Source: Pseudomonadota bacterium (GTDB lineage Bacteria; Myxococcota_A; Bradymonadia; Bradymonadales; GCA-2716585). Taken from it: a stretch of 64,000 nt of DNA. The position numbers were made by a program, and so were the translations under genes. Within the stretch, counting starts at the first letter, position 1; every line of letters begins with the position of its first letter. The stretch lies in assembly GCA_005804885.1 (NCBI GenBank), contig SYOX01000219.1:1-64000 (forward strand), in the 5' to 3' direction. The notes under the pieces are model-generated. The model saw only the letters and a program-made list of their open reading frames with translations. It searched no databases and was not told the origin of the DNA. Below are positions 53,252-62,096 of the stretch, one piece after another.

Positions 53252-56200
53252 ATGGCTTTCAGATCGGTCCAGGTCGGGGACATCATCGACGGGCGATACC
53301 GCCTCGGACGGGAACTCGGCCGAGGGCCCTACACGCGAGTCTTCAAGGCCGACGAGGTGAAGCTCGATCGGGAGGTCGTCGTCAAGATCCTCATCTCCTC
53401 CGGAGAGTACGCCAACGCCGAGTCGCGCTTCGAGCGCGAGGCCTTCCTGCTCTCCAAGCTCGCCCACGAGAACACCCTGACCCTCTTCGAATCCGGCTGG
53501 GACAAGGGCCTGGAGCACCCCTTCCTCGTCACCGAGTACGTCCCCGGCCTGACCCTCTGGGAGGTCATCAGGCGCCAGGGGGCCATCGACGCGGTGCGCA
53601 CCGTCGGGATCGTGCGCCAGATCCTCCTGAGCCTGCGCGAAGCCCACGACAAGGGGATCGTGCACCGCGATCTGAAGCCCAACAACGTCATGCTCTACGA
53701 CACGGAGTACGAGCGCGACAAGGTCAAGGTGCTCGACTTTGGCATCGCCAAGCTCGTCCACGCCGTCCAGATGGAGGACGAGGTCGGTGACGTGACCCTC
53801 GAAGGGCGCATGGTCGGCACCCCCCGCTACATGGCACCCGAGCTGATCGCCGGCCAGGACCCCTCGCCGGCCACCGACATCTACGCCGTCGGGCTGGTCA
53901 TGTACGAGATGATCACCGGCCGCCGGGCCGTCCAGGGCAAGCTCCCGACCCAGATCATCGCCCGCCAGCTCAGCCGCGAGCCCATCGTCGCGGCCAACGA
54001 GCCCGACGTCCCCGCGCTGCTGCTCGACGTCCTGAGGCGCGCGACGGCCAAGAGCCTGAGGTCTCGCTTCGACACCGTCCAGCGCTTCATCGGCGCGCTG
54101 GACGCGCTGGACAAGGACGCGCTGGCGGCCGCGTCGCTCGCCTCGACCAAGGCGCCGAAGAAGGCCGAAGAGGGCGACGTGCTCCCGCCCGGGATCTCCC
54201 AGGCCCTGGTGATCCTGTCCAGCACGTTCTCGAACAACTCGGGCGGGGGCACGACCTCCTCCGAGGCGTGGCCCTCGCACGACGAAGGCAGCGCCCTCCA
54301 GCCCGTCGAGATCGGCCCCCAGAGCGAGCCCGACATCCAGATCTTCACCTCCCTGCCCTCGCCGGCCCGTGCCGCGCCGTGGGCCATCGCCCACGCTTCG
54401 CTTCAAACAGCCCCTCCGCTGGAGCGGTGCGAGGGCCTCAGTCTGCCTCAGCCCGAAGAAGTCATCGTTGATGTGGATAATGATGATTTGGCTCGATTTT
54501 TTGATGATCAGGGGCGGGACGACACCCCCCCCCTCGTCGATCCGGCAGGGCAGGGAGAGGACCTGGACGCAGAGGCGGAGGGCTCGTCGGACCAGGGCCA
54601 GGCGGCGCTTGAGCCGTCGAACTCGCCAGATCAGGCCGAGACCCCGCGAGAGCCGGCAGATGCTCTGACCACCTCGGAGCCGGCAGACGCGCTGGACATC
54701 TCGGAGCCAGCGGACCTTCTGGCTGAGGGCGCCTCAGAGCCGGCAGACGCGCTGGACACCTCAGAGCCGATGGATGCTCTGGACACCTCGGAGCCGGCAG
54801 ACTCTCTGGCCGAGGACATCTCAGAGCCGACGGACGCGCTGGACATCTTGGAGCCGGCAGATGTTCTGGCCGAGGGCGCCTCGGAGCCAGCGGACGTTCT
54901 GGCCGAGGGCGCCTCAGCGCCAACAGACGCGCTGGACACCTCAGAGCCGGCAGACGTTCTGGACACCTCGGTGCCGGTAGACGCGCTGGACACCTCAGAG
55001 CCGGCAGACGTTCTGGACACCTCGGAGCCGGTAGACGCGCTGGACACCTCGGAGCCGGTTGACGTTCTGGCCGAGGGCGCCTCAGCGCCAGCAGACGTTC
55101 TGGGCACCTCAGCGCCAGCAGACGTTCTGGGCGCTTCAGCGCCGATGGACGCTCTGGACACCTCGGCGCCGGTAGACGTTCTGGACACCTCTGAGCCAGC
55201 AGACGTTCTGGCCGAGGGCACCTCGGAGCCGACGGACGCGCTGGACATCTCGGAGCCGGCAGACGCGCTGGACACCTCGGAGCCGGCAGGCGTTCTGGAC
55301 ATCTCGGAGCCGACGGACGCTCTGGATACCTCGGAGCCGGTTGACGTTCTGGCCGAGGGCGCCTCAGCGCCGGCAGACGTTCTGGGCGCCTCAGAGCCGA
55401 CGGATGCTCTGGACATCTCGGAGCCGGCAGACGTTCTGGCCAAGGGCACCTCAGAGCCGACAGACGTTCTGGCCGAGGGCGCCTCGGAGCCGACGGACGC
55501 TCTGGACGCCTCAGAGCCGATGGAGGGTCTGGCCGAGGGCACCTCGGAGCCAACAGACGCGCTGGACACCTCAGAGCCGATGGATGCTCTGGACACCTCA
55601 GAGCCGGCAGACGCGCTGGACATCTCGGAGCCGGTAGACGCGCTGGACACCTCGGAGCCAACAGACGCTCTGGACGCCTCAGAGCCGATGGATGCTCTGG
55701 ACACCTCGGAGCCAGCGGACCTTCTGTCCGAGGGCGCCTCAGCGCCGATGGACGCTCTGGACACCTCAGAGCCGGTAGACGCTCTGGACACCTCAGAGCC
55801 GGTAGACGCTCTGGACACCTCAGAGCCGGTAGACGCTCTGGACACCTCAGAGCCGGTAGACGCTCTGGACATCTCGGAGCCGACGGACGTTCTGGACACC
55901 TCGGAGCCGGTAGACGTTCTGGCTGAGGGCACCTCAGCGCCAGCAGACGTTCTGGGCGCCTCGGCGCCGATGGACGCTCTGGACACCTCGGTGCCGGTAG
56001 ACGTTCTGGACACCTCGGAGCCAGCAGACGCGCTGGACACCTCGGAGCCAGCAGACGCGCTGGACACCTCGGAGCCGGTTGACGTTCTGGCCGAGGGCAC
56101 CTCGGAGCCGACGGACGCGCTGGACATCTCAGAGCCGGCAGACGCGCTGGACATCTCGGAGCCGGTAGACGCGCTGGACACCTCGGAGCCGGCAGACGTT

Positions 56201-57025
56201 CTGGTCGAGGGCACCTCGGCGCCGGCGGACTCTCTGGCTGAGGGCGCCTCGGAGCCGACGGACGCGCTGGACACCTCGGAGCCGGTTGACGTCACGGAGG
56301 CGGAGGAGCCTGAAGCGCCGTTGACCCGTCAGGAGGCCCCGGAGCCCTCGTCGGGGCCCGAAGAGGCCGAGAGCGCCCGAGGAGGAGAGGTGGAGGCGCT
56401 GCTCGTCGACGTGCCTGTCGGGGGCGGAGAGGCGCCAGCCACCTTGAGCGCACCGGCGGCGTCGGAGCACCGACGCCGCGGCACCGACGCCGCCGCCGAC
56501 GTGCAGCCCGCGCTTTGGTCCGAGCCGGCCGCGCGGCCACGGGGATTCGAGAGGTCCCCGGACCTGGACGCGATGGCCCCAAGGGCGACCGCACAAGCCT
56601 GGGCGGCCTCGGATCCGTCGCAGCCCTTGAGCCCTTCACCGCAGCCCGCGTCGGCGCCGCAGGCCGATCCTCGGGCGGCGAAGGCTCAGCCCGCGGCGCA
56701 GCCTGCGGCTCGGCCTGCGCCACGGCAGCCACTTGCATCGGAGGCCGCGCCGGTTGTGGAGGCGTCGATCGAGGAGCCCGTGATCCTGATGCCACGGCAT
56801 CTGCCCGGCTACCCGGAGCGCTTCGAGACCTACGGCGCCAGGCTCGTCAACCCGTGGGTGATCGCCACGATCATCCTGTTGTTGCTCGCGGTGGCGGTGG
56901 CGGCCCTGGCGTGGTGGTTGAGCCAGCAGCCGGCTCAGGAGGGCGGGTCGCCGGAGGCGCACAACGTTTTTGAGCTGCCCCAGACCGCCGAGCTCGGCCG
57001 CCCTTGTTCCTCAGCGCGGGGTTGA
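53252..57025 (+). CDS. Ser/Thr protein kinase with a 57-unit acidic repeat region and C-terminal membrane anchor
   Basis: The 1257-residue protein has a kinase domain (about residues 8-290): GRELGRGPYTRVF, VVVKI, HRDLKPNN, DFGIAK and APELIAG. A linker leads to a region (about residues 470-1010) of 57 consecutive 9- or 11-residue units, ADALDTSEP or ADVLAEGASEP and variants. A Pro/Ala-rich part and a single membrane helix near the end (VIATIILLLLAVAVAALAWWL) follow, leaving about 35 residues outside. The repeat region might serve as an extended, phosphorylatable spacer. The next gene starts four bases after its stop. ATG at 53252 with AAGGAAC upstream. Confidence 0.9.
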   Translation: MAFRSVQVGDIIDGRYRLGRELGRGPYTRVFKADEVKLDREVVVKILISSGEYANAESRFEREAFLLSKLAHENTLTLFESGWDKGLEHPFLVTEYVPGLTLWEVIRRQGAIDAVRTVGIVRQILLSLREAHDKGIVHRDLKPNNVMLYDTEYERDKVKVLDFGIAKLVHAVQMEDEVGDVTLEGRMVGTPRYMAPELIAGQDPSPATDIYAVGLVMYEMITGRRAVQGKLPTQIIARQLSREPIVAANEPDVPALLLDVLRRATAKSLRSRFDTVQRFIGALDALDKDALAAASLASTKAPKKAEEGDVLPPGISQALVILSSTFSNNSGGGTTSSEAWPSHDEGSALQPVEIGPQSEPDIQIFTSLPSPARAAPWAIAHASLQTAPPLERCEGLSLPQPEEVIVDVDNDDLARFFDDQGRDDTPPLVDPAGQGEDLDAEAEGSSDQGQAALEPSNSPDQAETPREPADALTTSEPADALDISEPADLLAEGASEPADALDTSEPMDALDTSEPADSLAEDISEPTDALDILEPADVLAEGASEPADVLAEGASAPTDALDTSEPADVLDTSVPVDALDTSEPADVLDTSEPVDALDTSEPVDVLAEGASAPADVLGTSAPADVLGASAPMDALDTSAPVDVLDTSEPADVLAEGTSEPTDALDISEPADALDTSEPAGVLDISEPTDALDTSEPVDVLAEGASAPADVLGASEPTDALDISEPADVLAKGTSEPTDVLAEGASEPTDALDASEPMEGLAEGTSEPTDALDTSEPMDALDTSEPADALDISEPVDALDTSEPTDALDASEPMDALDTSEPADLLSEGASAPMDALDTSEPVDALDTSEPVDALDTSEPVDALDTSEPVDALDISEPTDVLDTSEPVDVLAEGTSAPADVLGASAPMDALDTSVPVDVLDTSEPADALDTSEPADALDTSEPVDVLAEGTSEPTDALDISEPADALDISEPVDALDTSEPADVLVEGTSAPADSLAEGASEPTDALDTSEPVDVTEAEEPEAPLTRQEAPEPSSGPEEAESARGGEVEALLVDVPVGGGEAPATLSAPAASEHRRRGTDAAADVQPALWSEPAARPRGFERSPDLDAMAPRATAQAWAASDPSQPLSPSPQPASAPQADPRAAKAQPAAQPAARPAPRQPLASEAAPVVEASIEEPVILMPRHLPGYPERFETYGARLVNPWVIATIILLLLAVAVAALAWWLSQQPAQEGGSPEAHNVFELPQTAELGRPCSSARG
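54655..56289 (+). repeat. Coding repeat array of the kinase (27/33-bp units)
   Basis: The DNA is composed of 57 units of 27 or 33 bases with high identity (for example GCAGACGCGCTGGACACCTC). Such an array can change in copy number by slippage or recombination while the frame is kept. The reverse strand is open across the array because of the codon pattern, but it does not represent a gene. Confidence 0.85.
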
Positions 57026-57029
57026 TCCC

Positions 57030-58256
57030 ATGATCCCAAGAGTTGTTGTGTCTCTGACAGCCCTCTGGGCGCTCTGTCTCCTGAGTTCTTGCGCCAGCGT
57101 CGCGCCTTCGGGCGTCGAAGAGCGCTCGGCGGGGCCGCGCTACGGGATCATCATCGACGCCGGGACGACCGGCACGCGCGTCCACATCTACGCCCTGGAC
57201 GGGCGCGACGAGGAGGGGGTCCCGCGCGTCCAGGCCGCGCCGTGGCCTCGGGGGCAGGGCGAGCCGCTCTGGGAGATGCGCGTCGAGCCCGGCTTGATCG
57301 ACAGCGGGGGCAACCCCGAGGCGGCCATTGCGTCGATCGAGCCCCTGATCGCCTACGCCGCCGACCGCGTCGGTCCCGACGAGCGGGAGCTGCGCCGCAC
57401 GCCGCTGTTCCTGATGGCGACGGCGGGCATGCGGGCGCTGCCCGAGCAGGAGCGCGAGGCGATCCTCGGCCCCGTGCGGGCGTGGCTCAGGGCGTCGTCT
57501 CCCTTTCATGTCAAGGATGTGCGCGTCATTACAGGAGAAGAAGAGGCGCTCTTTGGCTGGCTGACGATCAATTACGCGGGCGGGACGCTCAACGCCCGAG
57601 GCACTCAGGAGACCCTCGGGGTGCTGGACATGGGCGGCGGCTCGACCCAGATCGCCTTCGCGCCGACGAAGGCCCCCGAGGCCCACGGGGTGTCCGTGGA
57701 CTTTGGCCCCAGCGCCCTCCAGCTCTACGCCAGGAGCTACCTGGGTTATGGCGAGGAGCGGATGCTGGAGCGCGTGGCCGATCCCAGGTGCTCGCCCAGA
57801 GGGGCGCCGCTGGAGGGCGGCCGGGTGGGCCAGGGGGATTACGCGGCGTGCCGGGCGGTCATCCTCAAGGCGCTTGAGGGGCCGTGCGACAAGGGCCCCT
57901 GCTCCTTGATGGGGGCCTGGCAGCCGCCGCTGCGGGGCGACTTCGTCGCCGTCTCGGCCTACTTCTACACGATGACCTTCGCCGAGGCGGGCGATCCGGC
58001 CTCGCTGGAGGCCCTGGAGCGCTTCGGCGTGCACTACTGCGCCTCGGAGTGGTCTGAGATCCTCAAGGCGCACCCCGAGGTCGACCCGCGCTACCTGGTC
58101 CAGTACTGCTTCAGCGCCGCGTACATGGTCTCGATCCTCCACGAAGGATACGGCTTTGACATGGAGACCACCCAGATCAGGGCCCTGGACAGGATCGGGG
58201 GCAATGACACCGGGTGGACCCTCGGGGCGATGATCTTCGAAGCCAGCGCTCTGTAG
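57030..58256 (+). CDS. GDA1/CD39-family nucleoside triphosphate diphosphohydrolase (ectoapyrase) lipoprotein
   Basis: The 408-residue protein has a signal peptide ending LSSC and all apyrase-conserved regions: ACR1 DAGTTGTRVHIY, ACR2 LMATAGMR, ACR3 GEEEALFGWL with the catalytic Glu, ACR4 LDMGGGSTQIAF and ACR5 near TGWTLGAM. It should hydrolyse extracytoplasmic nucleoside tri- and diphosphates to monophosphates. E-NTPDases are mainly eukaryotic; few bacteria have them (for example Legionella). The start ATG lies four bases after the kinase stop, so the two are probably co-expressed. No obvious ribosome site beyond coupling is seen. Confidence 0.9.
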   Translation: MIPRVVVSLTALWALCLLSSCASVAPSGVEERSAGPRYGIIIDAGTTGTRVHIYALDGRDEEGVPRVQAAPWPRGQGEPLWEMRVEPGLIDSGGNPEAAIASIEPLIAYAADRVGPDERELRRTPLFLMATAGMRALPEQEREAILGPVRAWLRASSPFHVKDVRVITGEEEALFGWLTINYAGGTLNARGTQETLGVLDMGGGSTQIAFAPTKAPEAHGVSVDFGPSALQLYARSYLGYGEERMLERVADPRCSPRGAPLEGGRVGQGDYAACRAVILKALEGPCDKGPCSLMGAWQPPLRGDFVAVSAYFYTMTFAEAGDPASLEALERFGVHYCASEWSEILKAHPEVDPRYLVQYCFSAAYMVSILHEGYGFDMETTQIRALDRIGGNDTGWTLGAMIFEASAL

Positions 58257-60953: not shown

Positions 60954-61105
60954 GGGCTCGCTCCGTGCTGATTGGACCTGCGGCGGTCGTGGACACCCTC
61001 CTTCCATACAGCCGGGCCGCCCCGGCGACAAGGAGGCCGACCACGAGGGCGCGGCCAGCCCGCGCCGCTGGCCGCCGAGCGCCCGCCGGGCTGCCCTTCG
61101 AGGTC

Positions 61106-61134
61106 GGTTATCCATTCTTATCGGATGTTATCCT
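61106..61134. promoter_or_regulatory. AT-rich inverted/direct repeat patch, possible enhancer (UAS) site
   Basis: GGTTATCCATTCTTATCGG, then ATGTTATCC, contains TTATCC twice and an ATCC/GGAT inverted pair. It lies about 75-105 bases upstream of the -24 element of the sigma-54 promoter, a usual place for a bacterial enhancer-binding-protein site. It is one of the few AT-rich patches in the window. Confidence 0.4.
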
Positions 61135-61208
61135 GTTGGCGCGCGTTTGGGAGCGTTCGAAGCGGCGTTCAAGGTGTCGATCCCGTGTTTGTCGGGGTCG
61201 GTGCGATC

Positions 61209-61224
61209 TGGCACGGGGGCTGCT
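61209..61224 (+). promoter_or_regulatory. Predicted sigma-54 (RpoN) promoter of the tRNA / tRNA-like RNA / TROVE locus
   Basis: TGGCACGGGGGCTGCT matches the RpoN consensus TGGCACG-N4-TTGCW in all but about one position, with GG and GC correctly 12 bp apart, followed by a T-run. Transcription should start near 61235, 56 bases before tRNA-Gly. A sigma-54 promoter drives the rsr-yrl-rtcBA RNA-repair operon of enterobacteria through RtcR; the same logic would fit here. Confidence 0.65.
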
Positions 61225-61290
61225 TTTGAGTGAGGTCGTCGAGGCAAGGCGGAACGAGGCGAGATGCTCAAGCCGACAACGCCCGACAGC

Positions 61291-61361
61291 GCCTGGGTGG
61301 TTCAAGGGTAGAATGCTGGCTTGCCAGGCTGGCGACACGGGTTCGAATCCCGTCTCAGGCT
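61291..61361 (+). tRNA. tRNA-Gly (GCC)
   Basis: A 71-nt cloverleaf: acceptor GCCTGGG/CTCAGGC (one G-T pair), D-stem GTTC/GAAT, anticodon loop TTGCCAG with anticodon GCC, T-arm ACGGG-TTCGAAT-CCCGT, discriminator T. CCA is not encoded. The structure looks fully functional. The anticodon stem includes wobble pairs. Confidence 0.9.
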
Positions 61362-61403
61362 CTCGGGGGTTGCGGTCGAAGATCGTGAATCCCGAATGAT
61401 CGC

Positions 61404-61476
61404 GGGTGTGTAGCTCAACTGGAAGAGCGCCTGATTGTCGATCAGGATGGTGCGGGTTCAAATCCCGTCGCTCCCG
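61404..61476 (+). tRNA. tRNA-Asp (GTC)
   Basis: A 73-nt cloverleaf: acceptor GGGTGTG/CGCTCCC with one T-T mismatch, D-arm GCTC-AACTGGAA-GAGC, anticodon arm CCTGA-TTGTCGA-TCAGG with anticodon GTC, T-arm GCGGG-TTCAAAT-CCCGT, discriminator G as usual for tRNA-Asp. CCA not encoded. Spaced 42 bp from tRNA-Gly. Confidence 0.85.
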
Positions 61477-61516
61477 CCTGGTTCTGGTTCTTCTGGCCCT
61501 TCGGGGTCCAGTCATG

Positions 61517-61649
61517 GGGGTTGTCTGGGGGATGGTTCCCCCACCTCTCGGTAAAAGAGGCCAACACAACCGGCATCCGAGCTCGATCCTCTTCGGGGGA
61601 TCTCCATCGCGCTGCCTACAAGCATGTGGTTCGATTCCACACAACCCCC
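61517..61649 (+). ncRNA. tRNA-like RNA 1 (Tyr-GTA-like) with an inserted conserved stem in the variable region
   Basis: A perfect 7-bp acceptor stem (GGGGTTG/CAACCCC), a D-arm-like hairpin with a GG loop, an anticodon-like arm CCTCT-CGGTAAA-AGAGG (anticodon GTA, but position 33 is G instead of T), and a normal T-arm TGTGG-TTCGATT-CCACA. Between anticodon arm and T-arm lie about 64 nt: ACC-GGCA ... hairpin GATCCTC-TTCG-GGGGATC ... TGCC-TACAAG. A decoding tRNA is unlikely because U33 is missing. See tRNA-like RNAs 2 and 3, which share the inserted motif. Confidence 0.6.
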
Positions 61650-61650
61650 C

Positions 61651-61789
61651 TGTTTTCGCCCCATCGGTTGTGCCTACAAGCGATAGTAGCTCATCGGTAG
61701 AGCAGCGGCCTTATAAGCTGTAGGTGGCAGGTTCAAATCCTGCCTATCCATCAAAACCGGCGCAACCACTCGGGCGATGACAATTTTTT
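61651..61789 (+). ncRNA. tRNA-like RNA 2 (Ile-TAT-like) enclosed by a long terminal stem; Y-RNA-like architecture
   Basis: The tRNA-like body (about 61680-61750) has GATAG/CTATC in the acceptor, D-arm GCTC-ATCGGTA-GAGC, anticodon loop CTTATAA (anticodon TAT) and T-arm GCAGG-TTCAAAT-CCTGC; the first two acceptor positions do not pair. The body is flanked by GGTTGTGCC-TACAAG on the left and ACC-GGCGCAACC on the right. These pair over nine bases and continue, after a 4x4 internal loop, with TGTTTTCGCCC / GGGCGATGACA, followed by ATTTTTT. A 5'/3' terminal stem closing a tRNA-like module is the layout of bacterial YrlA-type Y RNAs that bind Ro/Rsr. Confidence 0.6.
61771..61789 (+). terminator. U-run after the closing stem of tRNA-like RNA 2
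   Basis: The 3' strand of the closing stem (GGGCGATGACA) is followed by ATTTTTT at 61783-61789. The stem is formed with sequence more than 100 bases upstream, so efficiency as an intrinsic terminator is uncertain; it could mark the 3' end of RNA 2 or be a partial terminator within the locus. Confidence 0.4.
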
Positions 61790-61792
61790 CAC

Positions 61793-61930
61793 GGGGATGT
61801 AGCCTAATTGGTAAAGGCACAGAACTTAGTATTCTGCATACAGCACGACCGGCTTTGAACCTCGGCCCTCATGAGGGGCCTCCCTTCTGAGCCTACAAGC
61901 ATCATCCGGGTTCGAGTCCCGGCATCCCCT
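61793..61930 (+). ncRNA. tRNA-like RNA 3 (Leu-TAG-like) with the same inserted stem in the variable region
   Basis: A perfect 7-bp acceptor (GGGGATG/CATCCCC), positions 8-9 TA, D-arm GCCT-AATTGGTAA-AGGC, anticodon arm CAGAA-CTTAGTA-TTCTG (anticodon TAG) and T-arm CCGGG-TTCGAGT-CCCGG. Between anticodon arm and T-arm lie about 69 nt: ACC-GGCT, GAA/TTC, hairpin GGCCC-tcatga-GGGCC, AGCC-TACAAG-CAT. The inserted part aligns with that of RNA 1. Either a tRNA-Leu with an extreme variable arm or a tRNA-mimicking RNA. Confidence 0.6.
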
Positions 61931-61988
61931 CTCGTGCTTCAGCTTCTGATGGCGGTGGTCGTCGATTTGAACGGCCTCGCCTGGATCT

Positions 61989-62008
61989 GCCCCTCCGGTC
62001 GGAGGGGC
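61989..62008 (+). promoter_or_regulatory. GC hairpin in the leader of the TROVE gene
   Basis: GCCCCTCC-GGTC-GGAGGGGC forms an 8-bp hairpin about 90 bases before the start codon. No U-run follows, so it may be a processing or stabilising structure. Confidence 0.45.
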
Positions 62009-62096
62009 GCTCAACCGCCCCGATCCTCGCCTGCGCCGGCGTCTGCCGCGTCGCGGGCTTCTGTCTTCGGGGCCGACCTCAAAGGGAGGTGACGTC

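Follow-up and report, generated by a model that had tools for sequence, protein, structure and literature searches.

The end of a short tRNA array in a bacterial genome raises the question of what RNAs that are shaped like tRNAs, and that carry a conserved stem in addition, are for. The array lies in the 64,000-nucleotide stretch of DNA that was analysed (the window; positions 1 to 64,000, forward strand, of contig SYOX01000219.1, assembly GCA_005804885.1), from a Pseudomonadota bacterium (GTDB lineage Myxococcota_A, Bradymonadia) whose genome comprises 9.86 Mb in 428 contigs. It spans positions 61291-61930 and contains tRNA-Gly, tRNA-Asp and then three odd tRNA-shaped RNAs (RNA1, RNA2 and RNA3), all upstream of a gene encoding a Ro60-like protein, with ~166 bases between the end of the array and the gene. 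RNA1-3 are probably Y-RNA-type partners of this protein. The combined reading, in which they are such partners and also serve as decoys or sensors for tRNA-cutting enzymes, was given a probability of about 0.6 as a compromise figure. It draws on the RNA structures, their covariation, their linkage to the protein, the Ro60-like predicted fold of the protein and the diverse anticodon arms, all of which were observed in this analysis.

RNA1 and RNA3 (type A) were tRNA-like cloverleaves with a 7-bp acceptor (GGGGTTG/CAACCCC and GGGGATG/CATCCCC, respectively) and a stem module between the anticodon arm and the T arm. The module is composed, from 5' to 3', of an outer stem strand, CUCG, an inner hairpin and the second outer stem strand, followed by UACAAGC. 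RNA2 (type B) had its tRNA body inside a terminal stem, in which GGTTGTGCC (61666-61674) pairs with GGCGCAACC (61759-61767), with the same YACAMG junction as type A. The first-pass annotation, made from the sequence alone, had described a conserved stem on tRNA-like bodies at two different positions: a segment with its own hairpin between the anticodon arm and the T arm of RNA1 and RNA3, and a junction and long terminal stem surrounding the body of RNA2, the bodies differing in their triplets (GTA, TAT and TAG). A letter-by-letter check of the sequence confirmed this description and the coordinates of RNA1-3 (Table 1). Single-sequence folds were more stable than those of shuffled sequences for RNA1 (z −4.0) and RNA2 (z −3.5), and less clearly so for RNA3 (z −2.0). 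The Rfam tRNA model scored RNA2 at 54.3 bits and RNA3 at 53.0 bits. RNA1 was not recognised by this model at the gathering threshold, and its tRNA-like domain of D and T arms was seen by inspection; ARAGORN called RNA2 alone among RNA1-3. A circularly permuted tRNA gene was considered and rejected, as types A and B both have the normal order of halves.

The genome contained one more array of this kind, on another contig, again in the order Gly, Asp, type A, type B. Its module and T arm were nearly identical to those of RNA1, and its D and anticodon arms were different. The proposal that the shared part is an independent module thus stood in part: the D and anticodon arms do vary around it, but the module and the T arm travel together between the two arrays. 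Over the homologous arrays, identity within arrays was 0.705 for the module versus 0.51 for the anticodon arm, and between arrays it was 0.594 and 0.487. Two further loci of this genome carried unusual tRNA genes. One (L066:527-660, minus strand) is a tRNA-Arg-like gene in which ~52 bases are inserted directly in the anticodon loop; the insert resembles a piece of acceptor and T arm and is without the YACAMG motif. The other (L064:1113-2305) is an odd tRNA array in which divergent genes of Phe-like and Gly-like type are repeated, some of them with unusual D arms.

Covariation was assessed in homologues. Type A candidates were collected by a regular-expression and acceptor search, which gave 90 raw sequences and 58 after filtering; 54 of these were aligned and used to build the covariance model R2, and four were kept out of the alignment (two from L115, one from L135 and L139:3287). 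The 54 sequences were picked by motif, T arm and acceptor, the 7-bp acceptor being a selection criterion, and the outer stem played no part in the choice. In this set, the outer stem was paired in 85.2% of cells, with double-sided changes at 5/5 pairs. The outer stem and T arm together were paired in 92.4%, versus 24-51% in slid controls, and 0/500 shuffles reached this level. The closing stem of type B was assessed in 26 sequences that had no part in building its model. Pairing was 77.2% (27-44% when slid), a share that is inflated because the rows were selected by a model that rewards this stem; double-sided changes were present at 8/8 pairs. The D, anticodon and T arms of the same 26 sequences were 100% paired. 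A YACAMG-type motif was located upstream of 21/26 ARAGORN-called type B bodies, versus 11/222 other tRNAs of the same loci. The covariation check proposed by the first-pass annotation therefore came out in favour of both stems, which are not chance features of the window.

The two models differed in how well they separated their targets. With R2, type A sequences scored 45-93 bits and presumed single ordinary tRNAs at most ~31 bits, the window tRNA-Gly and tRNA-Asp scoring 15.0 and 12.8 bits. Matches of ~31-45 bits were a mixture of divergent type A RNAs, joined neighbouring tRNAs and others, and were left uncounted. The gap between type B and ordinary tRNAs with the type B model, R1, was narrow (~57 versus 56 bits), and no whole-genome claim is therefore made for type B.

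The protein encoded downstream of the array (624 amino acids) has a C-terminal von Willebrand A (VWA) domain, with a Pfam VWA_2 match of 7.3e-6. Sequence-level searches for TROVE in the window protein were all without a match, and a comparison of folds came after them. A structure model built from 46 sequences, with L099 excluded from the alignment because of an internal stop, had a predicted local distance difference test (pLDDT) score of 84 and a predicted template modelling (pTM) score of 0.68; an earlier model from six sequences (pLDDT 55.7) was not used. The best Foldseek match of the predicted model was Ro60 (1yvp_A, E 5.9e-8). With VIA-align, 1yvp_A reached a Z score of 14.3 over 422 residues, and Deinococcus Rsr (2nvo) one of 13.3 over 418 residues. 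While isolated VWA domains scored equally high, they covered only ~140-185 residues, whereas the predicted fold matched Ro60 across residues 18-604, the C-terminal VWA domain included. By its predicted fold over nearly the whole length, the protein is thus a Ro60-like branch that Pfam TROVE misses. A block of N-terminal beta strands at residues ~37-100 of the predicted model may be an element that the Ro60 fold itself lacks.

The RNAs and the protein were linked across genomes. Relatives of the protein were found in 7/57 related genomes at E ≤ 1e-3, one match being weak, in 16/377 genomes of the phylum at E ≤ 1e-30, and at 37 loci in the viral database IMG/VR, where the longest contig had 618,736 bases; no relative was found in plasmids. 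Upstream of the protein gene, L083 had type A and type B, L084 and L085 had one type A each, and in L087 the two types alternated (A B A B A B). Neither type was present in L086. At R2 scores of at least 45 bits, type A RNAs were present in nine of the 377 phylum genomes (22 matches). All nine carry the protein, versus 16/377 overall (Fisher's test, 3e-14; the genomes are related and not independent). Seven of the nine had supplied training sequences for R2, and two (G004 and G346) had supplied none.

A similar association was seen in viruses, for which 30 of the 37 loci were scanned as whole contigs; the other seven, some of them near-duplicates, were left out. Among these 30 contigs, which were chosen for the protein, 27 had R2 matches at E ≤ 1e-7, and the three without a match were records of 83 kb, 12 kb and 17 kb. 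Of the viral type A RNAs (~45 bits or more), 68/83 were located within 10 kb of the protein gene, compared to 9.2 expected if they were uniformly distributed. At least one type A RNA lay within 10 kb of the gene in 26/27 contigs, and random shifts of whole arrays gave at most 13. Two R2 matches of 47 bits (L128:9801-9998 and L125:4180-4325) were counted in this distance test and excluded from the set of 103 type A RNAs described below, from which L194 was also excluded as the same RNA as L110. The compensatory changes, together with the linkage to one gene family, indicate selection. The suggestion that the stem is a putative Ro site was also supported indirectly, in that the RNAs track a protein of Ro60-like predicted fold across genomes and phages.

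The anticodon arms were examined in the 103 type A RNAs, of which 67 could be parsed; among the other 36, some had motif variants, mismatched stems or 8-base loops, and at least four had no visible anticodon arm. The triplet counts are approximate, as some picks are doubtful (for example, hairpins from the D arm). The 67 parsed loops contained 34 different triplets, the commonest being GUA (8/67), with uridine at position 33 (U33) in 38/67 and a purine at position 37 (R37) in 55/67. Among the triplets were two that would pair with stop codons, TTA and TCA, as well as several with A34. U33 was missing from 29/67 loops, and many of these RNAs therefore probably cannot decode. Within the window, RNA1 has G instead of U at position 33, and RNA3 has T at position 37. 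The type B loops (31 sequences, 24 triplets) had U33 in 29/31 and R37 in 31/31; U33 was present in 209/222 ordinary tRNAs of the same loci. Type A had paired acceptors but loops relaxed at U33, and type B had intact loops but weak acceptors.

The known RNAs closest to this pattern are the YrlA RNAs (RF02553). YrlA also has a Ro60-type gene nearby and combines a stem with a tRNA-like domain containing D and T arms. Its consensus, as given by cmscan, runs through an outer stem, an inner stem, CUAC, the T arm, a hairpin-capped acceptor and the D arm, and back to the stems; both ends of the RNA lie at the Ro stem, and it has no anticodon arm (PMC8394870). Type A has the same cyclic order, but is opened at the acceptor, has a capped stem and has an anticodon arm in addition. 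Type B is a third arrangement, in which a terminal stem is also present, on the acceptor, but the anticodon arm is kept. Y RNA and tRNA have been treated as circular permutations of each other (PMC11472068). Among eight YrlA matches that were read, CTCG preceded the last stem strand in 8/8 and CTACA preceded the T arm in 7/8.

A scan of positions 61000-62150 with RF02553 at E ≤ 10 gave a single match of 20.8 bits (cut-off 69), on the ordinary tRNAs, and none on RNA1-3. In 356 phylum genomes, the YrlA scan gave matches at E ≤ 1e-3 in 99, one over the cut-off; as 6/14 control genomes also matched below the cut-off, the weak matches mean little. The first-pass annotation knew of no described family with this pattern. 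This has to be narrowed, as Ro60 is known to bind bacterial Y RNAs that mimic tRNAs (PMC8394870), but these have no anticodon arm and are differently arranged, and anticodon-bearing Y RNA arrays of this exact pattern were not found in the literature searched, which lacked most subscription papers. The best reading of types A and B is that they represent tRNA-mimicking bacterial Y RNAs with a new architecture.

Given a Y-RNA-type partnership, the function as decoy or sensor has a chance of slightly under one half. The Ro60-like protein would bind the stem and the YACAMG junction of both types. In type A, the module is an extra arm on a full cloverleaf with open acceptor ends, and in type B, the junction and terminal stem close round the acceptor end of the tRNA body; in each case the body may serve as a tRNA mimic. 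The anticodon arms that the RNAs have kept would serve the ribonucleoprotein (RNP) as baits, with which it would occupy or sense enzymes attacking the anticodon loops of tRNAs, and the E1/JAB-type genes of the operon may act downstream of it. This function is favoured because the anticodon arm, which YrlA does not have, is kept, because many of the loops are unlikely to decode, and because the setting is rich in phages. A competitive-inhibitor role has been suggested for YrlA (PMC7790460), and tRNAs, including tRNA-Tyr, have been shown or argued to help phages against defences that cut tRNAs (PMC11555353, PMC10264068, PMC13096335).

Several findings weigh against the partnership or the bait function. 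Pfam TROVE matched 0/46 homologues of the protein at E ≤ 10 and gave no match for the window protein. Seven of the 16 protein-bearing genomes had no type A RNA at 45 bits, and G004 had no RNAs beside the protein gene and one type A RNA on another contig. Among the phages in which the protein was found, Virus Rctr197k (KX853510) was the only named one, and it had no RNA above the thresholds in the stretches searched (best scores 23.1 bits with R2 and 53.7 bits with R1); a ThiF-like gene was present. The diversity of triplets within arrays was not above random, with identical triplets in 1/41 pairs and 1.4 expected. At least four type A RNAs (L115:10448, L115:10997, L139:3286 and L125:9909) seem to be without an anticodon arm, and the arm is thus not indispensable. 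With a hidden Markov model of the type A module sequence, YrlA scored equally whether rotated or unrotated, the T arm alone matching; the kinship with YrlA is therefore at the level of motifs at most, and the RNAs are named Y-RNA-like partners. YrlA itself was uncut by the nuclease studied in PMC7790460.

Two observations were made beside these. A degenerate type B-like RNA (39.8 bits, unannotated) was seen by eye near position 175,300 of KX853510.1, 3' of the Ro60-like and ThiF genes. The type A-like RNAs at L115:10455-10563 and L139:3287-3392, in which the anticodon arm is apparently absent, look intermediate towards canonical YrlA.

The same evidence was weighed for other explanations. The main rival, possible but on balance unlikely, is that RNA1-3 are scaffold Y RNAs comparable to that of the Rsr-Y RNA-PNPase machine of Deinococcus: Ro60 would be tethered by the stem, the body would hold a nuclease or tRNA enzyme, and the anticodon arms would be a tolerated remnant of the parent tRNAs. 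Such a role is known for YrlA-type RNAs (PMC8394870, PMC4726728) and is consistent with the relaxed U33 of type A and with the RNAs that seem to lack an anticodon arm, but the near-invariant U33 and R37 of type B and its anticodon stem, paired in 26/26, are more than a remnant needs. It is improbable that the RNAs are functional tRNAs that Ro60 stores or protects, with type A decoding with an extra arm and type B being a tRNA precursor whose leader and trailer pair. CCA followed the discriminator in 11/58 type A genes, which is far above chance and not far from the 46/162 ordinary tRNAs of the same loci, and the type A acceptors have 7 bp, albeit as a selection criterion. Against this stand the type A loops without U33, the triplets TTA, TCA and those with A34, and the poorly paired type B acceptors (position 1 in 10/26 and position 2 in 16/26, versus 153-161/162 per position in ordinary tRNAs).

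Two further explanations were considered very improbable. The first-pass annotation had offered a small intron or removable insert in genuine tRNA genes as one identity of the module, and the location inside the gene, together with the normal-looking tRNA that would remain, fits that idea. It was not supported, as the stem and junction are conserved and covary, the insert occupies the variable region and has no fixed splice motif, the junction of type B lies at the ends of the RNA, and no Rfam intron family matched. Degenerate tRNA arrays of mobile elements, without a specific function, would account for the large divergent tRNA arrays in phages and in this genome, but hardly for the compensatory changes and the linkage to one gene family.

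Table 1. Features of the tRNA array and the adjacent protein gene in the window.
Feature	Position	Strand	Basis
Ordinary tRNA-Gly (gcc), head of the array	61291..61362	+	ARAGORN, Rfam tRNA
Ordinary tRNA-Asp (gtc), in the array	61404..61478	+	ARAGORN, Rfam tRNA
RNA1, type A cloverleaf with module, triplet GTA	61517..61649	+	sequence; R2 83.3 bits (training sequence)
RNA1 anticodon arm, CCTCT-CGGTAAA-AGAGG	61544..61560	+	sequence
RNA1 module, outer stem GGCA(T)/(C)TGCC, CTCG 61582-61585, inner hairpin 61585-61602	61572..61616	+	fold, covariation, sequence
RNA1 junction motif TACAAGC	61617..61623	+	sequence
RNA1 T arm	61625..61641	+	sequence
RNA2, type B, tRNA body in 9-bp terminal stem, triplet TAT	61666..61767	+	fold; R1 90.9 bits (training sequence)
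RNA2 junction motif TACAAGC, directly after the 5' strand of the terminal stem	61675..61681	+	sequence
RNA2 tRNA body, called as tRNA-Ile (tat)	61680..61752	+	ARAGORN, Rfam tRNA
RNA3, type A, triplet TAG	61793..61930	+	sequence; Rfam tRNA; R2 91.5 bits (training sequence)
RNA3 module, outer stem GGCT(T)/(G)AGCC, CTCG 61861-61864, inner hairpin ~61864-61881	61851..61893	+	fold, covariation, sequence
RNA3 junction motif TACAAGC	61894..61900	+	sequence
Ro60-like protein, C-terminal VWA domain, 624 amino acids	62097..63971	+	VWA_2 match; predicted fold

The Ro60-like gene is followed by genes for a 355-amino-acid protein and for Prok-JAB, ThiF/E1 and deaminase-like proteins. In 12 other loci, of which selected open reading frames were scanned, ThiF was present downstream in eight; one locus (L111) had JAB only, and three (L139, L137 and L087) had neither ThiF nor JAB in the frames tested. 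The 355-amino-acid protein recurs in bacteria and phages, with ~310-365 amino acids and encoded directly 3' of the Ro60-like gene (L062:123-1190, L105:7236-8333, L112:6838-7824 and others), and had no convincing Pfam match. Elsewhere in the window, positions 56970-58256 encode a bacterial nucleoside phosphatase (apyrase) of the GDA1/CD39 type (Pfam, 4e-76), and positions 53252-57025 encode a Ser/Thr protein kinase in which EPADALDTS-type repeats form a very long tract.

The system was compared with others already described. The Salmonella rsr-yrlBA-rtcBA RNA repair operon likewise combines a Ro60 protein with RNAs that mimic tRNAs, and it too is linked to tRNA damage (PMC7790460), but the neighbours here are the 355-amino-acid protein, Prok-JAB and ThiF/E1, and the gene for RtcB lies in another part of the genome. 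Phages also carry tRNA genes with which they evade defences that cut tRNAs, in one study with altered anticodon loops (PMC10264068, PMC11555353, PMC13096335); these are described as tRNAs, and the abstracts mention neither a stem module nor a linked Ro60 gene. Ro60-type proteins of phages have been reported (PMC7824862, PMC7765460, PMC12282133), as has a TROVE protein of Borgs (PMC11208441). One of these reports notes a ROT/TROVE protein with a tRNA-like partner in a small subset of jumbo phages; the passage concerned (PMC7824862) describes no anticodon-bearing RNA arrays.

These RNAs bear on the function of bacterial Y RNAs and on the reason for their mimicry of tRNA. As they carry whole anticodon arms, in arrays with many triplets, the decoy idea for Y RNAs becomes directly testable, triplet by triplet and nuclease by nuclease. 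The Ro60 systems are enlarged by a protein branch that Pfam misses, and the annotation of tRNAs in such phages should be read with caution, as it mixes working tRNAs with mimics. For jumbo phages, the arrays may represent a means of counter-defence. More tentatively, and with the odds against it, jumbo phages and some bacteria could possess a Ro60-based RNP with an expandable set of anticodon baits, which would absorb or report tRNA-cutting immune enzymes and would be coupled, via the E1/JAB operon, to protein modification.
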